Assembly: GCA_009911715.1 (NCBI GenBank)
Contig: CP047880.1
Span: 806,001 to 870,000 of the forward strand
Source: Methanomassiliicoccaceae archaeon DOK
Lineage (GTDB): Archaea > Thermoplasmatota > Thermoplasmata > Methanomassiliicoccales > Methanomethylophilaceae
Direction: 5' to 3'
DNA: 64,000 bases
Shown piece after piece: positions 39,650 to 47,158 of this stretch. The notes beneath the pieces are model-generated. The model had not been told where the DNA came from and did no database searches. It worked only from the letters and a program-made list of their open reading frames with translations. Within the stretch, counting starts at the first letter, position 1; each line of letters starts with the position of its first letter. The position numbers were made by a program, and so were the translations under genes.

Positions 39650-41398
39650 ATGATACTGAGGCACCTCTCCTGGCGTGGCCGGCTGATGCTGGCCATCTGC
39701 GTCTTCCTTATCGCCGGGCAGGTGTACCTCGACCTACGCATCCCGGAGTACATGGGGGTCATCACCGACCACCTGCAGGCAGGAACCGCAACAGACGTGA
39801 TCGCCCGCGACGGGGCGGCGATGGTAGTTTGCGCCCTGCTGAGCCTTCTGCTCGCCGCCTGCACCGCGGTCCTCGCAGCCAGGGTCTCCACCGACCTCTG
39901 CCACACCCTCCGCAGGCTGCTGTTCTCTAGCGTTGGCGCATTCTCCAGGCAGGACGTGGATGGATTCTCAGCGTCCAGCCTGATCACCAGGTCCACCAAC
40001 GACGTCTATCAGATCCAGCAGTTCCTGCCCAGGGCCATCAACATGGTCGTGAAGGCCCCGATGATAGGGATCATGGCCGTCTGGAAGATCAGCAGCAGCT
40101 CCTTCCAGTGGACATCGGTCACCGTCATCGCCATGATCGTCCTGCTGGCCGCGTTCTCCGTGATGCTCTACCGCGGGATGCCCTACATGCGCAGCATGCA
40201 GAGGCATGTCGACTCGGTGAACAAGATGACCCGCGAGGGTCTCGAGGGGGCCAGGGGGATCCGTGCGTACAACGCCGAGTCACGCCAGCAGGCGAGGCTC
40301 ACCGAGGCCAGCGGGAGGCTGCTGGACAACAGCATCACGCTCGTGAGGGTCATGGCGCCGATGCACGCCCTGGCGTCCTCGATGATGAACTTCCTGACGC
40401 TGGCGATATACTGGGTCGGGGCTGGGATCATCCAGTCGGCCGCAGGACCCGGGGAGCAGATGTCCCTGTTCTCGGACATGATCGTCTTCACATCCTACGC
40501 CACCCAGATCATCTCCGCGGTCATGATGGCCTCCGGGATCATCAGGGGTCTGCCAAGGTTCATGGTCTCCAGCAGACGCATCTGCGAGGTCATAGACCAC
40601 GTCCCGTCCGTGCGCGATCCCGATGCGCCCGTGGCCACAGAGGCCCTGGGCCGCGTGGAGTTCCGGGATGTAACGTTCAGGTACCCTGGCACTGACAGGG
40701 AGGTTCTTTCAGGGGTGTCCTTCGTCGCCGAACCCGGGGAGACCGTCGCGGTGATAGGCCCCACCGCCAGCGGGAAGAGCACGCTGCTGTCGCTGATCCC
40801 CAGGCTATACGACGTCACATCGGGGTCGGTCCTCGTCGACGGCGCCGACGTCCGCTCGTACACGTTCGAGGATCTCAACTCGCGCATCGGCTACGTGCCG
40901 CAGACCGCCGTGGTGTTCTCGGGAACTGTGAGGGACAACGTTAACTACGGCGGTGTCTCGGACAGCAGGGATGATGCGGACGTCGAGATGGCGCTGAGGG
41001 TTTCACAACTCTGGGAATTCGTCTCAGGGCTTCCGGACGGTCTCGACACGGACCTCGCCCAGCACGGATGGAGCCTCTCCGGCGGGCAGAGGCAGCGCCT
41101 GGCGATAGCCCGCGCCGTATGCAGAGGCCCCAGGATATACCTGTTCGACGACACGTTCTCGGCACTTGACTACAGGACCGACAGGGACGTCAGGGACGCC
41201 CTGGGCAGGGAGACCTCGGGGGCAACCAGGATAGTGGTCGCCCAGAGGGTGGGGACGATAATGGACGCCGACAGGATCGTGGTCCTGGATTCCGGGCGCG
41301 TGGTGGGCATCGGGACCCACGACGAGCTCCTGGAGTCATGCCCCCTGTACCGCGAGATAGCAGAGTCCCAGATGGAGGCGTGCGATGCCCGGAGGTAA
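39650..41398 (+). CDS. ABC exporter subunit with degenerate ATPase site
   Basis: 582 residues: six-helix membrane domain, then an ATPase domain with Walker A GPTASGKS (about 370), signature LSGGQRQ (about 476) and Walker B IYLFDDTFSALD. The catalytic Glu after Walker B is Asp, and the switch histidine is Gln (VVAQRVG). These changes are typical of the degenerate half of heterodimeric exporters such as TM287/288-like pairs. The next gene overlaps by 14 bp and supplies the consensus half. Substrate unknown. Confidence 0.9.
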   Translation: MILRHLSWRGRLMLAICVFLIAGQVYLDLRIPEYMGVITDHLQAGTATDVIARDGAAMVVCALLSLLLAACTAVLAARVSTDLCHTLRRLLFSSVGAFSRQDVDGFSASSLITRSTNDVYQIQQFLPRAINMVVKAPMIGIMAVWKISSSSFQWTSVTVIAMIVLLAAFSVMLYRGMPYMRSMQRHVDSVNKMTREGLEGARGIRAYNAESRQQARLTEASGRLLDNSITLVRVMAPMHALASSMMNFLTLAIYWVGAGIIQSAAGPGEQMSLFSDMIVFTSYATQIISAVMMASGIIRGLPRFMVSSRRICEVIDHVPSVRDPDAPVATEALGRVEFRDVTFRYPGTDREVLSGVSFVAEPGETVAVIGPTASGKSTLLSLIPRLYDVTSGSVLVDGADVRSYTFEDLNSRIGYVPQTAVVFSGTVRDNVNYGGVSDSRDDADVEMALRVSQLWEFVSGLPDGLDTDLAQHGWSLSGGQRQRLAIARAVCRGPRIYLFDDTFSALDYRTDRDVRDALGRETSGATRIVVAQRVGTIMDADRIVVLDSGRVVGIGTHDELLESCPLYREIAESQMEACDARR

Positions 41399-43175
41399 CG
41401 GGCCCAGATGGGCCAGGCAGGACAAGCCCCGTGACCTCAGGGCCGCCATGACGGGTCTGCTGGTCTACATGGGCAGGGACAGGCGCTCGCTCTACGCGGG
41501 AATGCTGTGCGCCCTCGCCGCCACCGTGCTCTCCCTGGTCGGACCGCAGCTCCTCGCCAGCATCACCGACAGCATATCGGGAAGCATCCTCGGTTCCACG
41601 CCGGTGGACATGGACTACATATCGCGGCTGGGGGTCGTCCTCGTGGTGATGTACGCGGCCAGCTTCCTTCTGTCCGTGGGCGAGACGAGGATCATAGGGG
41701 TGGCATCCGAGAGGATCGGCGACAGGATGCGCAGGGACCTTTCGGCAAAGTTCGACAGGCTGCCGCTCTCCTATCTTGAGTCACACAGCATCGGAGACCT
41801 CATGAGCCGCATGACCAACGACACCGACACGGTGCGCACGGGAGCGGCCGAGAGTCTCAGCACGGCCGTCTCCGCCGTATGCATGATCTGCGGCGGCATG
41901 GCTATGATGCTCTACACCGACTGGAGATTGGCGATGGTCGCAGTCGTACCGACGGCCATGGGCGCCACCATCCTCTACCTGGTCACCCACCGCTCCCAGA
42001 AGTACTTCGTGGCCCAGCAGAGGGACCTGGGCCTGATAAACGGGATCGTGGAGGAGACATACTACGGCCACGACGTCGTCCGCACATACAACGGCACGGA
42101 GGGGGCCGAGAGGAGGTTCGCAGAGGTGAACGACAGGCTCCGCTCGTCCTCATTCAGGGCGAGGGTCGCCACGGCCATGATGCCGCAACTTATGAACTTC
42201 ATAAGCAACCTCTCCTACGTCGTGGTCTGCGTCGCGGGGTCCGTGCTGATCATGGAGGGCAGCATCGGATACGGCGTGATCGTGGCCTTCATCGTCTACG
42301 TCAAGAGGTTCAACCAGCCCGTGGCCGAGATGGCGGACATCGTCGCCAGGATGCAGTCCGTCGCCTCTGCGTCCGAGAGGGTCTTCGGCATCCTGTCGAT
42401 GGAGGAGATGGCCCCGTCCCCCGAAGGGCCGCCGATCGGACGCGCCAGCGGCAGGGTGGAGTTCCGTGACGTCCGCTTCGGCTACACCCCCGACAGGGAG
42501 GTCATCCACGGATTCAGCCTCACGGTCGAGCCGGGGTCCAAGGTCGCCATCGTCGGGCCGACGGGGGCCGGGAAGACCACCATCGCCAACCTCCTGGTCC
42601 GCTTCTACGACCCGGACTCTGGGGGGATACTGATCGACGGCGTCCCGACCACATCCCTGTCCCGTGCGCAGGTCAGGGAGCAGTTCTCCATGGTGCTTCA
42701 GGACTCCTGGCTGTCGGACGGGACGTTCTACGAGAACGTCGCCTTCACAAGCGGGGCCAGCAGGTAGGACGTGGAGAGGGCATGCGACTCTGTCGGTATC
42801 GGGGAGTACATACGCGCGCTCCCCGAAGGATTCGACACCGTTGTGGGGGAGGCCTCGGGGCTCTCTGCAGGGCAGAGGCAGCAGCTCGCGATTGCCAGGG
42901 CGATGGTGAAGGACGCCCCGATGATTATCCTGGACGAGGCCACCAGCTCGGTCGACACCCGCACCGAGAGGAGGATACAGGAGGCCATGGACCGCATGAT
43001 GGTCGGGAGGACGTCATTCGTCATCGCTCACAGGCTCTCCACCGTCAGGGACGCCGATGTCATACTCGTCATCCGCGACGGGAGCATCGTCGAGTCTGGA
43101 ACGCATGTGGAGCTGATGAGGTCTGGCGGATTCTACCGCATGCTGTATGACTCCCAGTTCGAGGGATGCGACTGA
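41385..43175 (+). CDS. ABC exporter subunit with an internal in-frame UAG (possible pyrrolysine)
   Basis: The frame runs 597 codons apart from a TAG at codon 461 (42765-42767). Before it: six-helix membrane domain, Walker A GPTGAGKTT (about 391), Q-loop MVLQDSW. After it, in the same frame: signature LSAGQRQQLAIARA, Walker B MIILDEATSSVD with a canonical Glu, and the switch His in IAHRLS. Termination at TAG would remove the signature and Walker B, leaving no working ATPase. In a UAG-decoding archaeon the codon would be read as pyrrolysine; otherwise the gene is a nonsense mutant. It is the intact-site partner of the preceding gene. Confidence 0.85.
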
Positions 43176-43254
43176 TCCACTCTTTTCGGCAGAGCGTAAC
43201 GAGGCCCGGATGCTGACCAGTATTCCTTAAACATCTGCGACGTAATCGCTCATC

Positions 43255-45006
43255 ATGTAGAGGAAGAACCTGGAGATCATGGCTGTGGCGGCGGTGGCAA
43301 TCGCCGTCTGCGCCTTGGCATCCTTTGTCATGTTCGGTGGCGACGATCACGTTCCGACCGTCACGGATCCCGACTACCTCCCCAACCCGATCACCGACGA
43401 TATGCGGGACTACCCCGACGCCGAGGAGGCTCGGGCCGAGATGGACGAGCTGTTTGCGGCCTATATAGACACCATCCTGTCTGATGATGCTTGCGGAGAC
43501 GAGATCATGGAGTGTACCCAGTCCTTAGGGGATCTATACGGGGATCTCGAGGTATGGTATGGAATCTTGTTGTGGGATTACAGCCGTGACCCGTCGACCT
43601 ATTCCGTCCAATTCATGGAATGTTCCTCCGTGATCAATTCTTTCGACATGACCCTGAATGACGTCGTCCAGAGGGGGCTGGACGGACCGAATGCCGACGA
43701 GGTCGAAGCCGCCGTGATCACGGTGTTCGGACAGATGAAGTTTGAAAGCATGTCCTCATCGGCCACCGACATTCCCGAGCTGGCCGAGCTGTCGGAGCGC
43801 GAATTGGAACTTTGTGACATGTTCTACACCACCCCATCCACTCCTGACAACATGGCGGCGATATTCCTCGAACTGATCGATGTTCGCAACCGCATCGCGG
43901 AACTCCAGGGGTACGAGAACTACTCCGAATACGGATTCACGATGAAAAATTGCCGTGACTTCGGTCCCGATGACGTCGCGGGGTTCATGGTCGCCGTAGC
44001 CGACAGGGTGGTTCCGCTATTCTACTCGTACTTCGATACCTATCAGCCGCCTGAATACGACTACGGGTGTCCGCAACAGCTGTTCAATGACGTGTCTCAG
44101 TTCTTCCACTCGATCTCGGAAGAGTTCGGTCGGCTCTACGATTGCATGGTCGAGAACGATCTCATAGATTTCGATGACCTGCCCACGAAGCCTATCAACA
44201 CGTATACCTGGGGAAATTTATACAGCGATACGAGGTACGCGTACATCTGCGCCTATCCGTACGGAGGATTCCTGGACGTCAGAGGACTTGTCCACGAGTT
44301 CGGTCACGCCGCCAACTATTGTATGAATCCCACGAAGGATTGGGATTACGACATAAGTGAGTCGCAATCCCAGGGCCTGGAGGCGCTGTTCGCCCTCGAC
44401 CCTCAGATGCTGGACGGTCAGACGGAGGCTGTCAGGTCGGATGTCCTGTCCAATCTTCTCGCGAACATGATTATGGCCTCGTGTTTCACGGAGTTCGAAC
44501 TCAGGGCGTACGCGGAGGGACCCGACACACAAGAGGATCTGGAAGCCCTGTACGCAGAGGTCGTGTCCAAGTACGGGACCGAGGGTTGGAGTCCCTGGTA
44601 CTATTACAGTCAACTCTTCGGTAATCCGTTCTATTTCATGAGCTACGGAGTGTCAGCCTTCAACGCCCTGGACATCTTCATCACCGGTCTCGAGGACCTC
44701 GATGCGGCACTGGACGAGTACATGTCGATCCTCCTCTACGACCGGAACGGATACATGGGGATGACCGATGCCCTGGGGATCAGATCCGCCCTTGATCAGG
44801 AAGATTTCGACCATGTGCTGGATGCATTGGAGGCCATTTACGATCAGGCGGACGGGGGTCAATTTAACGTCGAGAGCGGTATGATGCAGCACTCTGCATC
44901 GATGGGAGCATACCGAGGCCCACGAGGAAACCGGGATTCGATGGCGCATCTTCGCGGTGTGACCCACTTACCCATAAATATGGCACGCGCATCCGAGGAA
45001 GCATGA
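43255..45006 (+). CDS. M3-family oligoendopeptidase, secreted or anchored, UAG at codon 2
   Basis: The frame from ATG 43255 reads ATG-TAG-AGG-AAG, then RKNLEIMAVAAVAIAVCALASF, a signal or anchor with positive N-region; the first ATG past the TAG is 43279, which would strip the positive charges. Read through, 583 residues. The zinc motif HEFGH is near residue 346 in LVHEFGHAANYC, with a downstream Glu (ESQSQGLEAL). The architecture matches PepF/thimet peptidases. The C-terminus runs into the aspS promoter, overlapping aspS by 4 bp. It may trim extracellular peptides. Confidence 0.8.
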
Positions 45007-46400: not shown

Positions 46401-47120
46401 ATGCGCGTTACGACCAACGGCGTCTCCATCTACTACGAGGTGCGCGGGAAGAAGGGCCCTGCCCTGATCATGCTCCACGGCAACGGGGAGGACCACAGGA
46501 TCTTCGACCGTGCCGTCGATTACCTCGAGCAGGTCTTCACCGTCTATCTCGTGGATACTCGCGGCCACGGAGAGAGCTCCCCGGTCAGGGAGTACCACTA
46601 CCAGGACATGGTGGACGACCTCTCCGAGTTCATCCGGAAGCTGAAGCTGGAGAGGCCCGCGGTGTGCGGGTTCAGCGACGGGGCGATCGTCGGGCTGATG
46701 TTCGCTTCACAGAACCCGGGCGTCCTGTCGCATCTCATCGCATGCGGCGCCAACACGAGACCAGAGACCCTCGGCGGTCTCAAGATGGCCCTGGACCGGA
46801 TCGGTGATCCGGGGAAGAAGGACCCCAAGGTCCGTCTCATGCTCACGGAGCCCGACATATCCGCCGAGGACCTGGCAAGGATAGATGTCCCAGTCACGGT
46901 GGTCGCAGGCAGCAGGGACTGCGTGAAGAGGAGCGACACCGAGTTCATCGCAGGCTCCGTTCCCGGAGCGGAACTGGTTATAATGGGTCGCGCCGACCAC
47001 TCCAGCTACATCGTCCACAGCACCAGGATCGTCGATGTGGTGTTCAAGGCCATGGGCGTCGACACCTCCGCCATCGCATTCGTAGACCGTTACCGAGCAG
47101 GACCGATAGCGGATCCGTAG
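46401..47120 (+). CDS. Alpha/beta-fold hydrolase, only gene ending in TAG
   Basis: 239 residues. The oxyanion region LHGNGEDHR, nucleophile elbow GFSDGA (Ser in GxSxG), a late Asp (AGSRDCVKR) and histidine (GRADHSS) form the usual triad. Substrate unknown; related enzymes are esterases or lactonases. It is the only complete gene here with a TAG stop. If UAG is read, the frame continues seven codons to a TGA at 47142-47144. Preceded by the aspS terminator and its own TATA box. Confidence 0.85.
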   Translation: MRVTTNGVSIYYEVRGKKGPALIMLHGNGEDHRIFDRAVDYLEQVFTVYLVDTRGHGESSPVREYHYQDMVDDLSEFIRKLKLERPAVCGFSDGAIVGLMFASQNPGVLSHLIACGANTRPETLGGLKMALDRIGDPGKKDPKVRLMLTEPDISAEDLARIDVPVTVVAGSRDCVKRSDTEFIAGSVPGAELVIMGRADHSSYIVHSTRIVDVVFKAMGVDTSAIAFVDRYRAGPIADP

Positions 47121-47158
47121 GGGATAGAACAACCGTCGTTCTGATGCAGAAGGGTGGG

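Follow-up and report, generated by a model that had tools for sequence, protein, structure and literature searches.

Pyrrolysine (Pyl) is encoded by an in-frame UAG in MtmB, MtbB and MttB, where the residue is conserved and catalytic. In AUG-stop minimal upstream ORFs, a start codon at the 5′ end of an mRNA is followed immediately by a stop triplet. Later work has reportedly argued that some Methanomassiliicoccales-type archaea read all of their TAG codons as Pyl. Scattered Pyl codons have already been published for this order: the text on Ca. M. alvus counts 16 further proteins with putative Pyl and gives TAG as 1.6% of stops (PMC4153887), and that on ISO4-H5 gives an in-frame amber codon in 46 genes in all (PMC5011839). 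An amber codon at codon 2 is not mentioned in the passages on such codons in these two organisms, gene lists aside (PMC4153887, PMC5011839).

Here, we describe, in a gut-type methanogen of the Methanomethylophilaceae, a gene for an M3-like peptidase in which ATG is followed directly by TAG. As far as the texts on scattered Methanomassiliicoccales amber codons describe them, the locus resembles those cases in its Pyl machinery, low TAG stop usage and single in-frame TAGs at sites where relatives use an ordinary codon, but differs in that the TAG is codon 2, right after the start of an apparently leaderless mRNA; it is this placement of the codon that is unusual. The UAG would lie within the frame as a Pyl codon, as in MtmB, MtbB and MttB, and the same tRNA and synthetase would serve, whereas position 2 of the peptidase is variable and outside the active site. 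With AUG-stop minimal upstream ORFs the gene shares an ATG directly before a stop triplet at the proposed 5′ end; unlike in those, the triplet is readable in this host and in frame with the main gene.

The host genome is a single contig of 1,889,135 bp (99.8% complete), and the window, which is the whole stretch of 64,000 nucleotides analyzed, corresponds to its bases 806001-870000. The genome encodes PylS (270 bits versus a family cut-off of 178), PylB (441 versus 348), PylC (315 versus 248) and PylD (203 versus 150), and the organism appears to carry a complete Pyl system. A tRNA-like fold with a CUA loop and a long anticodon stem is located upstream of pylS at L001:1262, although neither ARAGORN nor Rfam gave a match there. 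The Pyl cassette is adjoined by an mtmB-like gene, which has no NCBIfam match and whose codon 202 is TAG. It was also observed that pylB (L001:2184-3260) itself ends in TAG, the next TGA following after 24 sense codons, and that pylC comes directly after it without an obvious ATG start.

TAG usage was examined in a 464-kb sample comprising the window and 20 evenly spaced 20-kb stretches, in which a simple codon-usage gene finder called approximately 400 genes. Under the standard code, TAG is the stop in at most 14 of 419 genes. Besides the peptidase, five clear genes of the sample have a reading frame and an intact protein domain that extend across a TAG, one of them being the ABC transporter upstream of the peptidase and the other four as follows:

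L056:16365-17852, MttB methyltransferase with an in-frame TAG
L045:650-2164, AMP-phosphorylase-like gene with one in-frame TAG
L050:3552-4109, GNAT acetyltransferase gene with one in-frame TAG
L061:9878-11422, prismane/Hcp gene with one in-frame TAG

ORFs with multiple TAGs (in L050, L058, L060, L062 and others) were considered as many-Pyl genes and rejected: the three tested had no Pfam match, and all multi-TAG ORFs of the sample are taken as shadow frames. Some genes end in TAG with another stop close behind, namely an alpha/beta-hydrolase-like gene in the window (46401-47144; TGA 8 codons further) and two genes in L044 whose second stop lies within 15 codons, compared with a median of 32 for other genes; these are too few to judge.

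The peptidase locus contains the following features, all on the forward strand:

43224..43233, +, TATA-like element TCCTTAAACA, 31 bases 5′ of ATG 43255 (motif score 6.5)
43255..45006, +, gene for an M3-like, membrane-anchored peptidase with TAG as sense (PF01432; translation)
43255..43257, +, proposed ATG start codon, with the mRNA 5′ end probably there or adjacent (TATA spacing, C at -1, 12 homologues)
43258..43260, +, TAG as codon 2, proposed pyrrolysine (sequence; Pyl genes in the genome)
43261..43278, +, remaining N-region RKNLEI, with basic residues ahead of the hydrophobic anchor (matches that of 12 homologues)
43279..43281, +, following ATG in the same frame, most likely encoding Met9 within the protein; the start codon in a rival reading (aligns with an internal Met of homologue L008)
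44293..44307, +, HEFGH zinc-binding motif (HExxH; translation)
44863..45006, +, 3′-terminal part of the ORF for the C-terminal tail, probably not coding originally, overlapping the promoter and start of aspS (homologue ends, GC3, alignment)

From 43255 onward the sequence reads ATG TAG AGG AAG AAC CTG GAG ATC ATG GCT GTG, in agreement with the initial annotation, which had placed an ATG at 43255, a TAG at 43258-43260, then AGG-AAG, and the next in-frame ATG at 43279. The frame is closed by the TGA at 45004-45006, with no stop between it and the TAG. Assignment of the product to M3 peptidases was likewise borne out by an above-cut-off match to Pfam PF01432 (E=4.4e-7, 30.1 bits versus a cut-off of 27). 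The NCBIfam model TIGR02289 (M3_not_pepF) gave E=1.8e-26 but only 92.8 bits versus its curated cut-off of 442, which on sequence scores makes the protein a relative of that family and not a member. The product is also weakly similar to solved oligoendopeptidases F, and the gene 3′ of it encodes aspartyl-tRNA synthetase (aspS).

Upstream of gene starts in this genome, A+T content peaks at -29 to -24 and the base at -1 is C in approximately 63% of cases, which is the mark of leaderless transcripts. A TATA-like motif learned without positional bias from 169 gene starts, the peptidase gene probably being among them, peaks at -34 to -30. The score of 6.5 found upstream of ATG 43255 is reached by 24% of gene-start ATGs versus 0.9% of all ATGs, and the ATG has C at -1 and a TATA spacing that fits a leaderless gene. 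Genome-wide, a TATA-like element followed at leaderless spacing by ATG and an immediate stop triplet occurs nine times (TAG 3, TAA 4, TGA 2). At eight of these sites no more than 26 open codons follow, without clear coding signal; only 43255 opens a long coding frame, with at least 500 codons and a coding score of 175.

A scan of related loci revealed no close orthologues, and a genus-wide search yielded distant homologues only, at no more than 37% identity. In twelve homologous genes the start codon occupies the corresponding position, and the short N-region ahead of the anchor contains one to three basic residues (for example, MDRRNRVIIAI, MEKRNLALIIA and MDKRILAIIVA); most of these genes have a TATA-like element near -30. 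In the homologue from L008 (37% identical), MNTAQKAMAVAVVAI, a Met inside the protein corresponds to ATG 43279. The initial annotation had argued that translation from 43279 would leave the anchor without basic residues. Within the family this part of the argument stands, as a basic residue is present in 12 of 12 homologues; as a general rule it is weak, since 19 of 49 N-terminal anchors called mechanically genome-wide have none, and genomic N-region statistics do not discriminate. Considering the TATA spacing together with C at -1, the homologue starts and the uniqueness of the site among the nine, translation very probably does begin at ATG 43255.

None of the 12 homologues has TAG at codon 2. 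The nearest homologues, which are 34-37% identical, have GAT, AAC, AGG, AGC, AGA, AAG, GAA or GAC there, so that the residue varies among D, N, R, S, K and E. The AAG ancestor put forward in the initial annotation is a conjecture beside homologues as distant and varied as these. Because codon 2 is variable in the family, Pyl at this position would probably be tolerated or neutral, and not catalytic.

The gene immediately upstream also contains a TAG, and its features are as follows:

41385..43175, +, ABC transporter gene read through one TAG (membrane and ATPase domains on either side of the TAG)
42765..42767, +, in-frame TAG of the same gene, at codon 461 (GAG, Glu, without exception in relatives down to 66% identity)

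The other internal TAG that had been reported nearby was recovered, 493 bp upstream of that of the peptidase. With GAG at this site in all relatives that are 66% or more identical, comparison of the sequences points to a recent one-base change at a tolerant site by which a Pyl codon was gained. Among named genomes, the protein has its nearest relatives in Methanomethylophilaceae MAGs, including UBA71, to which the host is close. In addition, a congeneric genome (G001) has one in-frame TAG in each of two ABC transporter genes (L038; G001:C29:8290-10065).

Two arguments from frequency did not survive counting. The bare ATG-TAG pattern is not in excess of chance: when in-frame ATGs were counted over the 20 codons preceding each of 392 called gene starts, those cut off only by TAG, TAA or TGA numbered 6, 9 and 12, respectively, which places the pattern at background. 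The presence of two neighboring TAG-containing genes had been taken as more than chance, whereas approximately 6 such genes in approximately 400 would correspond to approximately 24 per genome and approximately 0.3 adjacent pairs by expectation, so that adjacency is no evidence. The hexamer ATGTAG is over-represented in the window (37 versus 14 expected), probably owing to the frequency of its complement CTACAT in coding sequence, and no weight is placed on this excess.

The other end of the peptidase gene is less regular. Homologues stop near residue 525-545, and the ORF extends approximately 47 codons further, with GC3 dropping to 0.55 in this tail, which aligns with sequence 5′ of aspS in relatives. 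A one-base shift near the G run at approximately 44856-44861 would put a TAA in the peptidase frame. Some decay or a sequencing indel at the 3′ end is possible. The peptidase gene appears to be a lineage-specific insertion, being absent between the ABC gene and aspS in two relatives (L063 and L065); the slot holds no large gene in L063 and two other genes in L065.

Several other explanations have to be weighed. If translation started at ATG 43279 after a leader of approximately 24 bases, the upstream ATG-TAG would be untranslated or a two-codon minimal ORF. That ATG is in frame, has C at -1 and is preceded by GGAG at -7 to -4, which could serve as a weak ribosome-binding site; moreover, an upstream in-frame ATG with a stop occurs at background level before genes, and anchors without basic residues are numerous in the genome. 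However, the TATA element would then lie at -55, where motif occupancy is at background, the homologues begin upstream of the equivalent Met, which in L008 is internal, and all 12 of them have the basic N-region that this start would remove. We consider it an unlikely reading, yet one that deserves more weight than the following two.

The irregular 3′ end could suggest a decaying gene that has acquired TAG at codon 2 by mutation, no longer has its natural stop and yields hardly any functional peptidase or none, given that the C-terminal tail is non-homologous and crosses the aspS promoter and that the gene is a lineage-specific insertion missing at this site in L063 and L065. General decay is improbable, however, in a gene that retains an uninterrupted frame of more than 500 codons (coding score 175) and an intact HEFGH motif, in a host able to read UAG. 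A sequencing or assembly error at the TAG is more improbable still: despite the possible homopolymer indel at the opposite end of the gene, a substitution outside a homopolymer is an unlikely type of error, the genome is in one contig at 99.8% completeness, and further TAG-interrupted genes occur within the same assembly.

In the peptidase, only the start codon precedes the TAG and clear homology follows it; the upstream side being the start codon alone, the case for a scattered Pyl codon rests on promoter spacing and homologous starts. With ATG 43255 very probably the real start in a host with an apparently complete Pyl system, the UAG is most likely read as Pyl at position 2. We assign a probability of approximately 0.74 to a leaderless start at ATG 43255 with UAG at codon 2 read as Pyl. 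The proposal that UAG is sense at position 2, already made in the initial annotation, is supported by the Pyl cassette, the TAG-interrupted genes, the leaderless spacing and the homologue N-termini.

According to this proposal, the peptidase mRNA would most likely be leaderless, with its 5′ end at or next to ATG 43255, and initiator Met-tRNA would pair with the AUG there. In the first round of elongation, UAG would be in the A site and be read by Pyl-tRNA(CUA), giving a product that begins with Met-Pyl-Arg-Lys-Asn-Leu-Glu-Ile followed by the membrane anchor. Pyl would be inserted simply through tRNA-Pyl competing with the release factor. No stimulatory fold was detected 3′ of the TAG (z = -0.19), and such a fold has not been reported as needed for Pyl insertion (PMC8211752). 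A more speculative extension, which we regard as rather improbable, is that the codon acts as a pyrrolysine gate: abundant charged tRNA-Pyl would allow the full anchored peptidase to be made via leaderless initiation, while under scarcity translation would terminate after one codon, with initiation, if any, at AUG 43279 and an altered N-terminus or membrane topology.

Taken alone, the peptidase case leaves existing knowledge of pyrrolysine unchanged. If the proposed reading is true, it would represent a natural example of a stop triplet serving as an amino acid codon as soon as elongation begins, in an archaeal mRNA that is apparently leaderless. Gene callers that apply the standard code would then also place starts wrongly in archaea that use Pyl, in this case with the loss of the N-region of the anchor.
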